Source: Parafrankia elaeagni
Lineage (GTDB): Bacteria > Actinomycetota > Actinomycetes > Frankiales > Frankiaceae
Reading direction: 5' to 3'
NCBI RefSeq assembly: GCF_000374165.1
Contig: NZ_KB893756.1
Span: 100 to 36,850 of the forward strand
Length of the DNA: 36,751 nucleotides
Shown here: positions 19,877 to 26,726 of the stretch, piece by piece
How the letters are laid out: each line of letters starts with the position of its first letter
Position numbering within the stretch: the first letter of the stretch is position 1
Position numbers and translations under genes: made by a program
Notes under the pieces: generated by a model
Database searches by the model: none
The model's input: the letters and a program-made list of their open reading frames with translations, nothing else
Told to the model about the DNA's origin: nothing

Positions 19877-22800
19877 ATGGCTCACGTCGAGGACCAGAGC
19901 GAGCTGATCACCCGCATTGTCGAGGAGGTGGCCGAGCTTCTGCCGCCGCAGGCCCCCCTCGGGTACTTCTCGCATCACAACCCCCTACACGCCCTGGAGG
20001 AGCTCCCGTTCTCGCGCGCGGTCGAGCACGCCTCGGCGATGCTGGGCACGCAGGCCTTCCAGACGGAGGAGTCGTTCGCCGCCCACCTGTCCTCCGGCCG
20101 CATCCTGGCCCGTGACCTCGTCGCCGTTCTGGCGCAGCACGACAGCTCCGCCCCGGCGATCGGGGGCACCGGCACCCGTCCCGGAACCGAGATCGTCCCG
20201 GGCGGGCCCAGCTGGGACGACTTCCGGCTCGCCCGGCTCGGGCTGTTCGTCGACGTCCCCCGGGCCGCCGGGGTTCCGTGGCGGCTGTCGGACGGCGGGG
20301 AGCTGCGTGAGTTCCACCCGCTGGTCTCCGCGGCGCGCCGCGACGAGCTGACCCGGCAGGCCCGGCGGCGCTTCCCGTCCGAGCGGCGGCGCACCCGGCT
20401 GGGCCGCACCACCGCACGCGCCGCCCTGCGGGCCCGGCTGCTGACCGAACTGTGGGCCGACCTGGCGCGCCACGCCCCGCCGGCCGTCCCGCCGCCCGCC
20501 CTCCCGCGCCGACGCGACCAGCTGCTCGAGCGTTTCGGCGTGGACGTCGACGAGGCCGTCCACCCGGTGCTGACAGCGCTGTGCGCGGCCTTCCTCGACC
20601 AGGGGATGGCCGCCTGGGATCTGCCGCATCGCGAGCAGGGCCTGCTCACCGCGTTCCGGCACCTCCACGGCACGATGGGCGCCCCTCGCGACCCGCTCTG
20701 GGCCCTGCTCGGCGGTCATCTCCGTCAGCAGCTCCGGGGTGACTGGTCGGCGCCGCGGACGGTCGCCTGGGCGCTGTGGTCGCTGGGCGTGCCGGTGCCT
20801 GCCTGGGCGGGCGCGATCCGGGCGACGCTGGTGTCGCTGCGCGGCTGGGCGGGGATGGTCCGCCAGTTCGAGTGCCACCCCGACCGGGCCCCTTCCCAGC
20901 CGGCGCCGGCGCGCCTCATGGACTATCTCGCCGTCCAGCTCACGCTCGAGGCGGTCGCCACCCACAACCTGCTGGGACGCCTCGCCGGCCCCGGTGCCGG
21001 CCCCGAGGTCCTCGGCCCGCTCGACTCGTTCGACTCGCTCGGCCCCGGCGCGCAGAGCGGGGCGGACCTGGAGCTGGTCTACGAGGCGTTCATCCTCGCC
21101 CAGATCATGGACGTCGACACCGAGCTGCTCGGCGACCCGCGGTGGGCGGGGGCCTGGCTCGGCGCCGTCGCCGGGCTCGGGTCGCGGGAGCGGCGCTGGC
21201 TGCTGCACCTCGCGTACGAGCGGCGCTACCGCACCCAGATCCTCGACGCCCTCGCCGCGCACGACCAGCGCCTCCCCGATATCGTCCCGCCCGCCGACTT
21301 CCAGGCCGTGTTCTGCATGGACGAGCGGGAGGAGTCGCTGCGCCGGCACCTGGAGGAGATCCACCCGCGGGTCCGCACCTTCGGCGCCGCCGGCTACTTC
21401 GGTGTCGCGATGGCCTACCAGGGCCTCGACGACGTCCGCCCGCGGGCGCTGTGCCCCGTGGCCATCACGCCCACCACCCTGGTCGTCGAACGTGCCGTGG
21501 AGGCCGGCGAGGTGGCGGCCTACGAGCGGTCGCGGCGCCGCGACGCCCATCGCCACCACATCCTCACGGCCGCCCGCGGCAGCTCCGGACGCCCCGCCGG
21601 GTACGCCGCGGTGGCCGGGCTCGCCGGGCTGCTTCCGCTGGCGGTCGGCGCCGTCGCGCCGAGAAGCGCCGGTGAGCGGGGCCGGCCGCGGACCGGTGAT
21701 CACCAGGGTGACGATCACCGGGACGGCGAGCGGCCGCGGACGCGCCTCGCCCTCGAAGCCGCCGAGACGGCCGAAGCCGTGAAAACGGTCGGCCTGGTGC
21801 CCGGCGTCGGCACGCGGCCGCTGCGGCCGGGGTTCACCGTCGCGGAGATGACCGAGATCGTCGACACGCTGCTCACGACGATCGGCCTGACCGGCCCGGC
21901 GGGGCCCCTCGTCTTCGTGATCGGGCACGGCTCGTCCAGCGTCAACAACCCGCATGCGGCGGCCTACGACTGCAGTGCCACCGGCGGCGGCCGCAGCGGC
22001 CCGAACGCGCGGGCGTTCGCCGCCATGGCGAACCACCCGCAGGTCCGTGCAGAGCTGGCACGCCGCGGACGCCCGATCTGGCCGGGAGCCTGGTTCGTCG
22101 GCGGCCACCACGACACCTGCGAGGGCTCGCTGACCTGCTACGACACCGACCTTGTGCCCGCCCACCTGCAGACCCCGCTCGCCCGGGCCACCGAGGCGCT
22201 GCGGTCAGCCGTCGAGCTCGACGCGCACGAGCGCTGCCGCCGGTTCGAAACGGTCGGACCCGACGTGGCCGCGGGTGCCGCGCACGCCCACGTGCGGGGG
22301 CGCTCGACCGACATCGCCCAGTCACGCCCCGAGTACGGGCACAGCACCAACGCCACCTGCGTGATCGGGCGTCGCTCGCGAACCCGCGGGCTGTACCTCG
22401 ACCGGAGATCCTTCCTGGTCTCCTACGACCCCACCACCGATGCGGACGGGGCGGTGCTCACCCGGCTGCTCCTGTCCGCGGGGCCGGTCGGCGCCGGCAT
22501 CAGCCTCGAGTACTACTTCAGCCGGGTCGACCCCACCGGGTTCGGCGCCGGGTCGAAGCTCCCGCACAACATCAGCGGTCTGGTGGGCGTCATGGACGGG
22601 CACGCCTCCGACCTGCGCACCGGCATGCCCTGGCAGTCGGTGGAGATCCACGAGCCGATGCGGCTGCTGATGATCGTGGAGGCGGAGCCGGAGCTGCTGG
22701 CCCGGATCGTGCGGGACAGTCCGCCGCTGCGCAGGCTCGTCGACGGCGGCTGGATCCAGCTCGTCGCCTGGGACCCGTACTCGCCACGGACCTGGGTCCA

Positions 22801-23086
22801 CCGCGACGGCGGTTTCGAGGCGCACGAACCGGAGAACCTCCGCCTGCCCGTGGTGGCCCGTTCGGAGCACTACTACGCGGGCCAGCGTGACCATCTGCCG
22901 CCCGCGCACGTCCTCGCCGCCTTCGGCGCTCCGTCCCCCGAGCGGGTTCTCGAGCCGGTTCCGGAACCGGTTCCGGAACCGGAGCCGGAGCCGGAGCCGG
23001 GCGCGGGCGGGCGCCGTCAGGCGGCGGTCATCCGGCTGCCCGAGCAGGCCCACGAACCGCGACCGGTCCGGCAGGACAGTTCATGA
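19877..23086 (+). CDS. dabA: DabA (DUF2309), inorganic-carbon transport subunit
   Basis: Cytoplasmic-face subunit of the DAB complex, which hydrates CO2 to bicarbonate with a beta-carbonic-anhydrase-like zinc site driven by ion flow through DabB. The four zinc-site residues are present: Cys480 and Asp482 in VFCMDERE, His684 in IGHGSSS and Cys699 in AAYDCSA; the spacing of 15 between His and Cys equals that in characterised DabA. Other family blocks are FSHHNPLHALEELPF near the N-terminus and GPNARAFA. At 1069 residues it is longer than the usual 800-1000 owing to a disordered PEPVPEPE tail (about 1010-1040). ATG at 19877 is chosen for its GGAGG five bases upstream; 150 residues of low-complexity frame precede it. 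The stop overlaps dabB by ATGA, so translation is coupled. Confidence 0.92.
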   Translation: MAHVEDQSELITRIVEEVAELLPPQAPLGYFSHHNPLHALEELPFSRAVEHASAMLGTQAFQTEESFAAHLSSGRILARDLVAVLAQHDSSAPAIGGTGTRPGTEIVPGGPSWDDFRLARLGLFVDVPRAAGVPWRLSDGGELREFHPLVSAARRDELTRQARRRFPSERRRTRLGRTTARAALRARLLTELWADLARHAPPAVPPPALPRRRDQLLERFGVDVDEAVHPVLTALCAAFLDQGMAAWDLPHREQGLLTAFRHLHGTMGAPRDPLWALLGGHLRQQLRGDWSAPRTVAWALWSLGVPVPAWAGAIRATLVSLRGWAGMVRQFECHPDRAPSQPAPARLMDYLAVQLTLEAVATHNLLGRLAGPGAGPEVLGPLDSFDSLGPGAQSGADLELVYEAFILAQIMDVDTELLGDPRWAGAWLGAVAGLGSRERRWLLHLAYERRYRTQILDALAAHDQRLPDIVPPADFQAVFCMDEREESLRRHLEEIHPRVRTFGAAGYFGVAMAYQGLDDVRPRALCPVAITPTTLVVERAVEAGEVAAYERSRRRDAHRHHILTAARGSSGRPAGYAAVAGLAGLLPLAVGAVAPRSAGERGRPRTGDHQGDDHRDGERPRTRLALEAAETAEAVKTVGLVPGVGTRPLRPGFTVAEMTEIVDTLLTTIGLTGPAGPLVFVIGHGSSSVNNPHAAAYDCSATGGGRSGPNARAFAAMANHPQVRAELARRGRPIWPGAWFVGGHHDTCEGSLTCYDTDLVPAHLQTPLARATEALRSAVELDAHERCRRFETVGPDVAAGAAHAHVRGRSTDIAQSRPEYGHSTNATCVIGRRSRTRGLYLDRRSFLVSYDPTTDADGAVLTRLLLSAGPVGAGISLEYYFSRVDPTGFGAGSKLPHNISGLVGVMDGHASDLRTGMPWQSVEIHEPMRLLMIVEAEPELLARIVRDSPPLRRLVDGGWIQLVAWDPYSPRTWVHRDGGFEAHEPENLRLPVVARSEHYYAGQRDHLPPAHVLAAFGAPSPERVLEPVPEPVPEPEPEPEPGAGGRRQAAVIRLPEQAHEPRPVRQDSS
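22950..23002. repeat. Short tandem repeats at the end of dabA
   Basis: Copies of ggttccggaacc and then ggagcc encode PEPVPEPVPEPEPEPEP. It is a simple-sequence linker in the C-terminal tail. Confidence 0.75.
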
Positions 23087-25389
23087 CCGGCGACTCGGCA
23101 GGCGGAACCTCCGGTGGGCTCCTGCCCGCGGCGCTGGTGACCGCGGTCGCCGCCCCCGCCGCCGCCGTCACGGTGCTCGCCGGCCTCATGTGGTTCGGCC
23201 GGGCCCGGTCGGAGCGGCTGATCAGGGCCATCGTGGCGTCGTCCTTCACCGTCGTGGCCCTCGCCTGCGGGCTGCTCGCCGGTGGCATGGTCCTGCGCGG
23301 CCACGAGTCGATCGGCGCCGAGGCCGGTCCGTGGTTCGGCGCCGGGGAACACACGTTCACCTGGCAGCTGAGCGCGGACGCGGTCTCCGTCCCGTTCGCG
23401 CTCGTCGCCGCCGTCCTCATCGGGCTGACGGGTGCGGTGTCGGCCCGCTACCTGCACCGGGAGCCCGGCTTCGCCCGGTTCCACCTGCTTCTGCTGCTGT
23501 TCGGCGGCAGCGTCGAGCTGACGGTCCTGGCCGGCGACCCGCCGGCGCTGTACTTCGGGTGGGAGCTCGTCGGGCTGACATCCGCGCTGCTCATCGCGTT
23601 CTTCGTCGAGCGGCGGGCGCCGGTGCGCCACGGCCTGCGGGCCTTCCTCACCTACCGCGCCGGCGACGCCGGTCTGCTGGTGGCCGCGATCTGGATCGGG
23701 CAGCTCGCGAGCTCGCCCGACGGCGGTGACCCCGCGCACGCCGACGGCTGGGACGCCATTCTGGCCGCGCCGGGCGTGGTCGCCCATGCGCCGGCGCTGT
23801 GCTTCCTGCTGCTGGCCGCGGTTCTGGCCAAGTCGGCCCTGATCCCCGTCGGCGGCTGGCTCCCGCGGGCGATGGAGGGGCCGACCCCGTCCAGCGCGGT
23901 GTTCTACGGGGCGGTGTCCATCCACCTCGGCCCCTACCTGCTGCTGCGCGCCGAGCCGCTGTTCGCGCACGCTCCGGCCGCCCGCGTGGCGGTGGTGTTC
24001 GTCGGGGCGCTGACGGCCCTGCACGCCACCGTGGTCAGCCGGGCCCAGAGCGACGTCAAGAGCGGGCTGGCCTACGGGTCGATGACCCAGGTCGGGCTGA
24101 TCGTGGCCGAGATCGGGCTGGGGCTGCACACGCTTGCGCTCACGCACATCCTCGTCCACGCGACGCTGCGCTGTGCACAGATCCTTCGCTCACCCAGCGC
24201 GCTGCGTGACAGCCAGCGCCTGGAGCAGGCACAGAGTGGTGCCCCCACATCCGCATCCCGGCCGGGACGGATCACGCCCGCGCGGTGGCAGCCCCGGCTG
24301 TACCGGTACGCGTTCGAGAGGGGAGACGCAGACGTGGTGCTTCGCCAGGTCGGAGGAGCCGCCGCGCGTGCGCTGACGGCGATCGACCGCTGGCAGCGGC
24401 AGGCTGCCGGCATCATCAGCGGGGGGAACGGCACCGCCCTCACGCCCGCTCATCCTGCCACCGGGCAGGTCGGCGGCCCGGGTGGTTCCGCCAGTGGGCC
24501 GGAACCGGTCCACGGGGACTGGTGGCCGTGGGCGACGACGGACACCGTGGTGGCACCGGCACCGGCTGAGCCGACACCGCGGCCTGAGCAGGCACCGCGG
24601 CCTGAGCCGACACCGCGGCCTGAGCAGGCACCGCCGAGGGCCGGCAGCAGGCCGCTGGACGGTGGGTCGCTGGACGGTGGAGCAGCACCGCAGCACTCGG
24701 CACCTGTGACGACGTCCCGCCCCGCGGGACGCCGGGCGCAGGAAGGCTCCGGGCCCTACGGCGCGGACTCGTACACCTTCGAAACCACCTCGGAACCATC
24801 CCCATCGGCCCTGGCGGCGCACCGGATTCCCGGGCAGCCGGGTCCGCTGGCGGTCTCCCGCCCCGGGGCCGTCTCCCGCCCCGGAGACCCGCCGGGCCTG
24901 CCGGAGACCACCCGGCCCTCCGTGCCACCCAGGCTCCCGGTGCCGCGCCCGGCGGTGGACGATGCCGTCGTCGCCTCCCGCCCCGCCGCCGGACCCGCCT
25001 CCGCCGAGCCGGTCGAGGCTGATCCCGTGACGGGTGATCCCGTGACGGTCGAGCTGGTGCCGGTCGAGCTGGTGGCGGTCGATCCTGCGGCGGAGGAGCC
25101 GATGACGGCCGAAGCCGCGGCCGGCGTCGGTGTCGGCGCCGACACCGACACCGACGCCGCGCCGGGTACCAGTGCCGAGCCGGCCGGCAGGCCGACCGAC
25201 GCGGACAAGGCGCCGGCGAGGGCGGCGGACGTCCGACCCGCCTGGCCGGACAACGAGCCCCCGCGGCGCCTCACCGCGCATCGTGACTCGGCCGGTGGGG
25301 GGACCCGCCCGGCGCTGCCCGCGGAGGACCGGCCGCGCTTCCCGACCGACGTCCGCCCTGTCCGGCCGCGCGCGGGCGGGCCGTGGTGA
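23083..25389 (+). CDS. dabB: DabB-like proton-channel subunit, short membrane part with long tail
   Basis: Membrane partner of DabA, related to NuoL/MrpA antiporter subunits. Conserved ion-path residues are present: Glu161 in GWELVGLTSALL (TM5 type), Lys250 in LAKSALIP followed by WLPRAMEGPTPSSAVFY (TM7-8 type), and Lys326 in SDVKSGLAYGSMTQVG. The membrane part ends near residue 370 just after HILVHATLRCAQIL, which corresponds roughly to TM12 of NuoL; the remaining helices of that family are missing. Residues 372-768 are hydrophilic, Pro/Ala/Glu-rich, partly repetitive and probably cytoplasmic or outside, with no known domain. It is translationally coupled to dabA (ATGA) and overlaps the next gene. 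The tail is nearly 400 residues, which is exceptional for this family. Confidence 0.85.
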   Translation: MTGDSAGGTSGGLLPAALVTAVAAPAAAVTVLAGLMWFGRARSERLIRAIVASSFTVVALACGLLAGGMVLRGHESIGAEAGPWFGAGEHTFTWQLSADAVSVPFALVAAVLIGLTGAVSARYLHREPGFARFHLLLLLFGGSVELTVLAGDPPALYFGWELVGLTSALLIAFFVERRAPVRHGLRAFLTYRAGDAGLLVAAIWIGQLASSPDGGDPAHADGWDAILAAPGVVAHAPALCFLLLAAVLAKSALIPVGGWLPRAMEGPTPSSAVFYGAVSIHLGPYLLLRAEPLFAHAPAARVAVVFVGALTALHATVVSRAQSDVKSGLAYGSMTQVGLIVAEIGLGLHTLALTHILVHATLRCAQILRSPSALRDSQRLEQAQSGAPTSASRPGRITPARWQPRLYRYAFERGDADVVLRQVGGAAARALTAIDRWQRQAAGIISGGNGTALTPAHPATGQVGGPGGSASGPEPVHGDWWPWATTDTVVAPAPAEPTPRPEQAPRPEPTPRPEQAPPRAGSRPLDGGSLDGGAAPQHSAPVTTSRPAGRRAQEGSGPYGADSYTFETTSEPSPSALAAHRIPGQPGPLAVSRPGAVSRPGDPPGLPETTRPSVPPRLPVPRPAVDDAVVASRPAAGPASAEPVEADPVTGDPVTVELVPVELVAVDPAAEEPMTAEAAAGVGVGADTDTDAAPGTSAEPAGRPTDADKAPARAADVRPAWPDNEPPRRLTAHRDSAGGGTRPALPAEDRPRFPTDVRPVRPRAGGPW
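24566..24637. repeat. 18-bp tandem repeats in the dabB tail
   Basis: Four units of a ctgagc(c/a)g(a/g)caccgcggc-type sequence at 24566, 24584, 24602 and 24620 encode PTPRPEQAPRPE. Units alternate between two forms, which suggests duplication of a pair. Confidence 0.75.
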
Positions 25390-26726
25390 CGCTGGCGGTC
25401 GCCCCGCTCGTCGCCACAGCCGCCCTGCTGGCCGGTTCGGCCGCGGCGTGCCGGGCCCCTGACGCCCGGGCCGCCCGGGCGGTCGCGACCGGCTGCGTCG
25501 CCGTGACGACCGCCGCCGCTGCCGCCGCGATGGTGGTGGAGCGCGTGGGCACGCCGACCGGCGTGCCCGGGGTGGTGCTGTTCGCGTCCGGTGCCGGGCG
25601 CTGGATGCCGCTGGTGACCCTGCTCGCCGGCCTGGCCGCGACGGCGCTCGCTCCCGTGCCGTCCCATGGTCGCCGCACGTTCGCCCGGATTCTGCTCATC
25701 CTGGCCTGCGGCGCCGCGGCCACGGCGGTGGCCGCACCCGCGGCGGCTGTCGCGTCCTGGGCACTGTCCGCCTTCGTCGTCTGGCGAGAGCTTCGCGCGG
25801 ACGGGGGCGGGGCGGGTCGGCGCGGCGCGGCGCGGTTGTTCGGACTGCATCACGCGCTGGGGGTGGGCGCCTGTACGAGCGGCCTGCTGCTGGCCCACCG
25901 GCCCGGAACGACCGCGCTGGCCGCATTGCTGGTCACCGTCGGGGTGGGTGTCCGTCAGTGTCTCCTGCCGCTGCACCTGTGGCACGACTCCCTTGCCCGG
26001 GCCGCCCCACCGGGGATCCTGGTCGCGTTCACAGCGGGGCCGGCGGGGCTGCTGCTGCTTCCCGAGATCACCGCGGCGCTGCCCGCGAGTGGCCCGGCCG
26101 GCTCCGGGGGGTGGGGCTGGGACTGGGGCTGGCCCGCCGTCGCCGCCGCCCTGGCGACCGCGCTCCTGGGAGCCGGGCTCGGGCTCGTCGCGCGTGACAT
26201 CCGTACCGCGCTGGCCCAGGTCAGCCTTGCCCTGACCGGCATCGTGACCTGTGGTGCGCTGGCCGGGTCCGGGCTGGCGCAGGCCGGAGCGGTCGTCGCC
26301 TGGCAGGTCGGCGCGGTCGCCACCGGCGGCGCGGTCATGATCGCGGCGGCGACGGAGGCCCGGCGCGGTCCGATGGCGCTGCCCGGCCAGGGCGGTTGCT
26401 TCGCCCGTACCCCGCGGCTGGCCGTGGCGTTCCTGTTGTTCGGGCTCACCGCCGTCGGCTACCCGGCGACGGTCGGCTTCATCTGGGAGGACCTGCTCCT
26501 CGACGGTGTCGGGGGCTGGTTCGTCCCGCTGGCCGGCGCCCTCGTGCTGGCCGTCGCCGGCTCCGGCGCAACCATCATGAAGTGGTACTTCGCCGGCTAC
26601 ACCGGACGTCGTGACCATCTCGGCGAACACGACCTGACCACCCGCGAGTTCCGGGCTGTCACCCTGCTGCTTGCCGTGCTGCTGCTGGCCCAGGTGCATC
26701 CGGGCCTCATCCTGCCCCGGTACTGA
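25383..26726 (+). CDS. Second antiporter-like membrane subunit of the dab operon
   Basis: Very hydrophobic protein of about 447 residues with about 12 helices, related to the NuoL/M/N family by the block LLPLHLWHDSLARAAPPG (195-212), which matches the LPxHxWLPxAHxxAP segment of antiporter subunits. The usual ion-path residues are not conserved: the TM5 Glu position reads W-A-L-S (Ala127) and the TM7 Lys position is Arg191. It is likely the complement to the shortened DabB, or a structural partner. The start is GTG at 25383 or the next GTG at 25386, which gives a four-base GTGA overlap with the dabB stop. It ends the three-gene operon; 109 bp follow before the phosphatase gene. I find no name for it. 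Confidence 0.75.
   Translation: MVTLAVAPLVATAALLAGSAAACRAPDARAARAVATGCVAVTTAAAAAAMVVERVGTPTGVPGVVLFASGAGRWMPLVTLLAGLAATALAPVPSHGRRTFARILLILACGAAATAVAAPAAAVASWALSAFVVWRELRADGGGAGRRGAARLFGLHHALGVGACTSGLLLAHRPGTTALAALLVTVGVGVRQCLLPLHLWHDSLARAAPPGILVAFTAGPAGLLLLPEITAALPASGPAGSGGWGWDWGWPAVAAALATALLGAGLGLVARDIRTALAQVSLALTGIVTCGALAGSGLAQAGAVVAWQVGAVATGGAVMIAAATEARRGPMALPGQGGCFARTPRLAVAFLLFGLTAVGYPATVGFIWEDLLLDGVGGWFVPLAGALVLAVAGSGATIMKWYFAGYTGRRDHLGEHDLTTREFRAVTLLLAVLLLAQVHPGLILPRY

Follow-up and report, generated by a model that had tools for sequence, protein, structure and literature searches.

The genome of Parafrankia elaeagni encodes a predicted CO2-capturing membrane machine made of three proteins instead of two. 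In the window, the whole stretch of 36,751 nucleotides that was analyzed, three overlapping open reading frames (ORFs) on the + strand (19877-26726) form an operon in which dabA is followed by a NuoL-like gene, here called B, and a NuoM-like gene, C. Judging from aligned residues, a key acidic residue of such systems appears in this form to have been transferred from the enzyme to the membrane subunits. We propose, with about even confidence, that DabA-B-C would function as a PMF-driven vectorial carbonic anhydrase whose essential carboxylates lie in the membrane subunits instead of the DabA finger.

A three-gene operon with a complete DabA zinc site

An earlier note on this DNA had described three overlapping ORFs, and the coordinates bear this out: dabA and B share an ATGA at 23083-23086, and B and C overlap by 7 nt at 25383-25389. 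The dabA gene (19877..23086, +) encodes a protein of 1069 aa that belongs to PF10070 (E = 2.6e-216) and is the single match of its kind in the host genome. The zinc site, which had been claimed to be complete, is so. Residues C480, D482, and R484 (21314..21328, +) align with C351, D353, and R355 of DabA2, and the zinc ligands H684 (21926..21928, +) and C699 (21971..21973, +) align with H524 and C539; all are unchanged in 89/89 DabA rows. The locus combines two features of DAB/DAC systems, a PF10070 DabA with the Cys-Asp-Arg-His-Cys zinc-site residues and an adjoining PF00361 membrane subunit. In the "finger" segment of DabA (21554..21676, +), Ala578 (21608-21610) occupies the column of DAB2 Glu444.

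A NuoL-like B subunit that ends after TM11

The B gene (23083..25389, +) encodes a NuoL-like DabB of 768 aa that matches PF00361 (E = 2.9e-33) and, falling short of the model's curated cut-off, TIGR01974 NDH_I_L (E = 9.2e-54). Its membrane core, TM1-11 (23083..24231, +), contains E161, D195, K250, Y275, H281, K326, H355, H359, and R363. The first four of the residues counted, E161, D195, K250, and Y275, are kept in all 128 B rows that have a residue there (130 rows, 2 gaps), K326 in 126/127, H355 in 126/126, H359 in 122/126, and R363 in 126/126; in these counts, L127 and L131 are entered twice, and L033 and L107 represent one locus. Tyr275 lies at the position of the NuoL TM8 His, and Arg363 at that of the NuoL TM11 Lys. 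Since alanine at the TM8 His of DabB2 (H260) or at K347 impairs the function of DAB2 (PMC13144422), the path through B itself differs from that of DAB2.

The earlier note placed the end of DabB after a TM12-like helix. Alignment with NuoL corrects this to a point after TM11, with residue 383 aligned to residue 362 in NuoL numbering and TM12-15 missing. A disordered tail of 400 residues had been described beyond that point; the tail is present, and its length is smaller, as a conserved amphipathic segment (residues 399-446; 24277..24420, +) comes first and is followed by a Pro/Ala/Gly-rich tail of 322 residues (24421..25386, +). The conserved end of this tail, EDRPRFPTDVRPVRPRAGGPW (25324..25386, +), is recognizable in 7/7 loci of the genus. 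Counted past the R363 column, L107, from the same genus, has 525 residues and the other separate B proteins have 81 to 125 (median, 104), as measured in 67 of 75 B proteins from the scan, all 67 of them separate proteins, with cut or fused B excluded. Short tails were found in L038 and L039. We rejected the idea that the long tail is essential to the system, because it is confined to one genus among the loci measured.

A third subunit with a predicted NuoM fold

The C gene (25383..26726, +; GTG start) encodes a NuoM-like third subunit of 447 aa. Its assignment to the antiporter family agrees with the earlier note and is supported by a match to PF00361 (E = 1.8e-12) and by a predicted NuoM fold. 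The AlphaFold model (pLDDT 91.6, pTM 0.92) is that of a complete antiporter of 14 helices, grouped by hand into 14 TM, with broken TM7 and TM12, and its best Foldseek matches are NuoM/ND4-type chains of complex I. The operon had been read as one in which the membrane subunit is divided in two. We rejected C as a split-off C-terminal part of DabB because it aligns with NuoM along its length and is predicted to form all 14 TM; the broader proposal, a DAB of three parts of which two are antiporter-like membrane subunits, is supported.

The channel residues of NuoM are the TM5 Glu, TM7 Lys, TM8 Lys, TM10 and TM11 His, and TM12 Glu, and the C protein of the window retains the TM12 Glu alone. As the earlier note had it, Ala127 (25761..25763, +) is found at NuoM Glu144 (TM5) and Arg191 (25953..25955, +) at NuoM Lys234 (TM7); the TM8 Lys, TM10 His, and TM11 His are also gone. 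Among 104 separate C rows, none has Glu at the Ala127 column (1 gap), and 103 have Arg at the Arg191 column. The TM12 carboxylates, Glu369-Asp370 (26487..26492, +), with Glu369 at NuoM Glu407, form a pair that is acidic in 99/104 separate rows; three others have no acid at the aligned pair (L109, L113, and L262), and two more are gaps. The loss of channel residues is not uniform, since the TM10 His is kept in 38/104 of these rows.

An exchange between the DabA finger and TM5 of B

Two-gene loci and all other classes sampled differ at two positions. The finger Glu is present in 29/29 two-gene rows, and the same column in 119 rows of other classes contains no Glu, 1 Asp, and 5 gaps. The TM5 Glu is found in 0/28 two-gene loci and in 23/23 loci of the other classes (10/10, 4/4, 7/7, and 2/2), as well as in 82/82 rows with a residue at this column in another alignment. 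In DAB2, the finger Glu444 completes the proton path, the substitutions E444A and E444Q abolish activity, and a Glu introduced at position 151 halves the growth yield (PMC13144422). Large clusters from the same phylum encode a B with its own C-terminal helices and nonetheless lack the finger Glu, so the exchange is not limited to systems whose B has lost TM12. Few evolutionary events may lie behind it.

Distribution, natural B-C fusions, and coevolution

The earlier note had suggested a search for further genomes with dabA followed by two NuoL/M-like genes. DabA occurs in 10 of the 36 genomes searched within the family; in nine of the ten, all three genes recur in the same order, which is more than chance would give, and in the tenth, G025, only pieces of both dabA and the third gene were found. 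The three-gene form also occurs in several phyla, which widens the known variety of the DAB family. At least 80 related loci were kept from the genome scan; 66 of them have a scored C, 2 have a B-C fusion, and in the remaining 12 of 80 the contig ends before the C position. L230, a 3,440-base contig with dabA, was left out of the locus classes, and L104, L103, and both halves of L262 were dropped before the DabA tree. No antiporter gene was found beside dabA in L248 and L254, which have a DabA of the multi-antiporter type.

The B-C fusions mostly retain only the later helices of C. All 17 fusion rows have the TM12 acid, and in 14 of them the Arg191 column is a gap. The AlphaFold model of one fusion, L127, has a pLDDT of 79.5 and a pTM of 0.84.

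Mutual information across 68 B-C pairs yielded several top pairs that join TM4-7 of B to TM12 of C. This hint was not repeated by ridge DCA on 114 B-C pairs, in which 3 of the top 100 were of this kind versus about 3 expected and a few hub columns led the ranking. L109, L113, L115, L116, L143, L123, and L032 were excluded before both runs.

Relationship to described systems

DAB2 of Halothiobacillus neapolitanus (DabA2-DabB2; PDB 9rd0; PMC13144422) has the same DabA zinc site, a NuoL-like B up to TM11, and the central Lys and His residues. It consists of one full-length, 15-TM DabB and a DabA with finger Glu444, and Ile151 takes the place of a Glu at TM5, whereas the Parafrankia system has the finger Ala578, Glu161 at TM5 of a B without TM12-15, and an added NuoM-like C. 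DAB1 of the same organism (hneap_0907-0909) also has three genes, including dabA and dabB, but its third protein is a small hypothetical transmembrane protein and not a 14-TM NuoM-like one (PMC13144422). In MpsABC of Staphylococcus aureus, MpsA and MpsB are homologous to DabB and DabA, and mpsC is described as dispensable and as a neighbor of mpsAB in staphylococci alone (PMC6689103).

According to the earlier note, described DAB systems have one full-length DabB. The gene order of the present form was reported in 2017 (PMC5700660). In the COGNAT "clade C" of that report, ybcC (dabA) precedes a nuoL homologue and additional nuoM-type (COG1008) and COG0659 genes; the order and the NuoM-like gene of the window agree with the first two of these and with the nuoM-type gene. 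That report gives gene order and suggests that subunit number may be related to the ions moved. In the parts of it and of other literature that were surveyed, we found no description of the B truncation or of the exchange and no experiment on a member of this clade. Larger dabA clusters found in this analysis, with at least three antiporter genes, have DabA proteins of kindred clades, no finger Glu, and a B with the TM5 Glu; they differ in having a NuoM-like gene before dabA and more NuoM- or NuoL-type genes after B. The abstract of Schmid 2021 reportedly mentions between one and three subunits.

Proposed mechanism and alternatives

In the reading we favor, DabA-B-C is a DAB/DAC member, in the clade with several antiporter-like subunits, that would be driven by the membrane potential. 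CO2 would be hydrated at the DabA zinc site, and B, in which the complex I-type TM5 Glu is present, would carry a proton between a cytoplasmic half-channel and the membrane center. The TM12 carboxylate supplied by C would complete this path in trans or couple to it laterally. Completion by C would make up for a B without TM12 and a DabA finger without the Glu that replaces the TM12 charges in DAB2. The analysis itself shows which genes are present and in what order, the conserved residues, the finger/TM5 exchange within the sampled loci, the natural fusions of B and C, and the NuoM fold predicted for C; from these we infer the assembly of the three proteins into a single complex, CO2 as the substrate, the proton direction, and the role of the C carboxylate.

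A rather unlikely alternative is that C sits on B in the manner of NuoM on NuoL in complex I, its TM12 acid facing Glu161 of B in a lateral charge relay instead of taking the place of the TM12 that B lacks. The TM5 Glu of B tracks the extra antiporter subunits and is absent from two-gene loci, the predicted NuoM fold of C is complete, larger clusters have more NuoM-like genes, and the 68-pair mutual information joins the expected helices, all of which would suit such a relay. The failure of the 114-pair run to repeat that hint argues against it, and fusions that mostly keep the later C helices fit completion in trans at least equally well.

The central channel residues are retained in B and not in C, in line with the earlier claim that a single membrane subunit carries ions. 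The rest of that claim, that the other subunit is structural, is doubtful. A C that merely covered the side of B opened by the loss of TM12-15, carrying no proton, would agree with the five channel residues lost from the window copy; the TM12 acid conserved in separate and fusion rows alike, the absence of the finger Glu from DabA, and the uneven retention of the TM10 His make it improbable. Another job altogether, such as transport of bicarbonate or transport coupled to sodium, both of the kind suggested for MpsAB, or operation in the opposite direction, might suit a host with four beta-carbonic-anhydrase matches (one partial) and is very improbable given a carbonic-anhydrase-like zinc site that is wholly retained. 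Those matches, and no match to the RuBisCO large chain in the search of the host genome, give no indication of a role in concentrating CO2 for RuBisCO.

If DabA-B-C does complete its proton path with carboxylates of the membrane subunits, it would be a second natural solution without the finger Glu, which the DAB2 structure paper proposed as the basis of proton coupling to DabA (PMC13144422), and that coupling model could be tested by shifting carboxylates between the two wirings. Tentatively, we suggest that DAB systems come in two such wirings, with the membrane carboxylate either on the DabA finger or on TM5 of B plus TM12 of C with complex I-like antiporter coupling, and that the three-gene form represents the second in its smallest version. 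The larger clusters may then translocate more than a single proton for each CO2.

Features of the locus and its host

Three overlapping genes on the + strand of the window (19877 to 26726) encode DabA (PF10070; E = 2.6e-216), a NuoL-like DabB, here called B (PF00361; E = 2.9e-33), and a NuoM-like third subunit, C (PF00361; E = 1.8e-12). The DabA gene is the only PF10070 match in the genome. An HxlR regulator and a SpoIIE-type phosphatase (identified with Pfam) flank the locus, as do genes that we labeled glutathione peroxidase-like and kinase-like; each occurs in 5 or 6 of 6 same-genus loci. We found four beta-carbonic anhydrase matches in the host genome, one of them partial, and a search of the same genome for the RuBisCO large chain returned no match, which makes a supply of CO2 or bicarbonate for ordinary carboxylations likelier than a supply for RuBisCO.

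In alignments, C480, D482, R484, H684, and C699 of DabA occupy the columns of the zinc ligands and Asp-Arg dyad of DabA2 from Halothiobacillus neapolitanus, the roles of which are described in the covered parts of PMC13144422. Glu444 of that system (DAB2) falls in a Phe-x-x-Val-Glu motif when residues are counted along the aligned 9rd0 chain. The window DabA has Ala578 in this column, which lies in the segment we refer to as the finger.

B and C subunits

Aligned with Escherichia coli NuoL, B retains E161, D195, K250, K326, H355, and H359 (NuoL E144, D178, K229, K305, H334, and H338), has Tyr275 at H254 and Arg363 at K342, and lacks TM12 to TM15. It continues as a conserved amphipathic segment followed by a disordered tail, which is long in this genus and short in the other B proteins measured. 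The last 21 residues of the tail (window 25324 to 25386) are recognizable in 7 of 7 genus loci, and the rest is variable. Across all pairs of these loci, the 21 terminal codons differ by 174 synonymous and 63 nonsynonymous changes, whereas a stretch of 21 core codons has 105 and 0. These counts are suggestive of selection at the protein level, though not proof of it.

Aligned with NuoM, C has Ala127 at E144, Arg191 at K234, a gap at K265, Leu284 at H322, and Gly310 at H348, while Glu369, adjoined by Asp370, falls at E407. Among 104 separate C rows, 103 have Arg at position 191 and 99 have the 369/370 acid (3 lack it and 2 have gaps); 38 retain the TM10 His, so its loss is not universal. The predicted fold (AlphaFold with 55 rows; pLDDT 91.6, pTM 0.92) best matched complex I NuoM/ND4-type chains in the PDB, with query TM-scores of 0.74 to 0.85 for the first ten.

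B and C are joined in some lineages, forming one 775-residue protein at two alphaproteobacterial loci (L127 and L131) and one open reading frame of about 625 to 808 residues in a divergent planctomycete clade. The TM12 acid is kept in 17 of 17 fusion rows and the Arg191 column has no residue in 14 of 17; fusion to B thus often removes the first part of C but leaves the TM12 acid in place. For the L127 fusion, an AlphaFold model built with 47 rows, including five read-through rows, had a pLDDT of 79.5 and a pTM of 0.84. Most of its listed Foldseek matches were NuoL/ND5-type chains, aligned over about 350 to 400 columns.

Exchange of finger and TM5 carboxylates

We compared 20, 20, and 17 stretches from three phylum samples, a subset of the matches. 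The finger column holds Glu in 29 of 29 rows of the two-gene class (dabA with one dabB), one of which, L085, has both parts in a single open reading frame. Finger Glu is found in none of the 97 three-gene rows (5 gaps), 12 large-cluster rows from the window's phylum (8 Gln, 3 His, and 1 Asp), 6 proteobacterial multi-antiporter rows, or 4 divergent planctomycete rows. The TM5 Glu of B shows the opposite distribution: 0 of 28 two-gene loci and 10/10, 4/4, 7/7, and 2/2 loci of the remaining classes. A separate count on the scan loci found it in all 82 rows that have a residue at that position. In a FastTree phylogeny of 144 DabA rows, with the root placed by us on the two-gene rows, these rows stayed together and the large clusters branched beside the proteobacterial and three-gene rows, some inner supports being weak. 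The pattern is consistent, though it may stem from few independent events.

According to the covered parts of PMC13144422, Glu444 in DAB2 occupies the place of the NuoL TM12 charges, activity is lost in both E444A and E444Q, and a Glu at DabB position 151 cuts growth yield by half. The A-B-C clade is reversed relative to DAB2 at both the finger and TM5 positions, and nearly all three-gene loci also encode a partner that has a TM12 acid. The simplest account is that C would supply, in trans, the carboxylate missing from the finger. The main alternative is a NuoM-on-NuoL type of contact, with TM12 of C set against TM5 of B; sequence covariation did not discriminate between the two. Two observations speak against a simple reading: B carries Tyr and Arg in place of the TM8 His and TM11 Lys, and the large clusters lack the finger Glu even though their B retains its C-terminal helices.

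Published descriptions, as far as the covered parts of each source extend, include ybcC upstream of nuoL, accompanied by additional genes of COG1008 and COG0659 (COGNAT 2017; PMC5700660) and MpsAB, which differs in that its third gene is dispensable (PMC6689103). Over the same extent, the A-B-C form is absent from the discussion in the DAB2 paper (PMC13144422) and is not mentioned in PMC10880623 or PMC12628692.

Distribution and related clusters

DabA was detected in 10 of 36 family genomes searched, and 9 of the 10 encode A-B-C; the tenth (G025, locus L040) has only pieces of dabA and the third gene, with no match to B. We scanned a genome collection with 12 DabA rows and obtained at least 592 matching stretches. 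Of these, 571 were confirmed; keeping the best 80 biases this set toward close relatives. Those best 80 of 571 include actinomycetes (e.g., Saccharothrix, Actinokineospora, and Pilimelia), Planctomycetota, Acidobacteria, Verrucomicrobia, Myxococcales, an Armatimonadetes bin, and two alphaproteobacterial bins. C was scored in 66 of the 80, some cut by a contig end; B and C form one protein in 2, and in the remaining 12 the contig ends before a whole C. We added 46 B/C rows from further genomes and fusions; two of these rows (L127 and L131) duplicate scan loci, and there may be further duplicates. Genomes with a PF10070 match numbered 23 of 396 in the window's phylum, 56 of 299 (55 over the cutoff) in that of L127, and 17 of 149 in that of locus L171. 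The clade's DabA profile matched 7/347, 8/288, and 58/382 genomes in three phyla, counts that include weaker matches to other DabA types.

In the large clusters of the window's phylum (L086 to L089, L091, L093, L095, and L099 to L101), which may belong to Acidimicrobiia and some of which run off the contig, a NuoM-like gene precedes a DabA of about 1,300 amino acids; NuoL- and NuoM-like genes come next, in many cases with another NuoL/N-like gene. In L095, a 1,153-amino-acid open reading frame combines NuoL- and NuoM-like parts. Two loci, L248 and L254, have a multi-antiporter-type dabA for which no adjoining antiporter-like gene was found. The order NuoM-like, dabA, B, NuoM-like, NuoM-like occurs at L246, L251, L252, and L256 (phylum of L127), where B has the three-gene residue signature. 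At three loci from the phylum of L171 (L268, L269, and L304), two dabA genes are transcribed divergently, and downstream of each lies a separate long B open reading frame, which we read as a B-C fusion. The genomes of L108 (a Myxococcales bin) and L186 (Bryobacterales) encode a second dabA besides the three-gene one (L187/L272 and L188/L271), with the finger Glu and an adjoining B gene.
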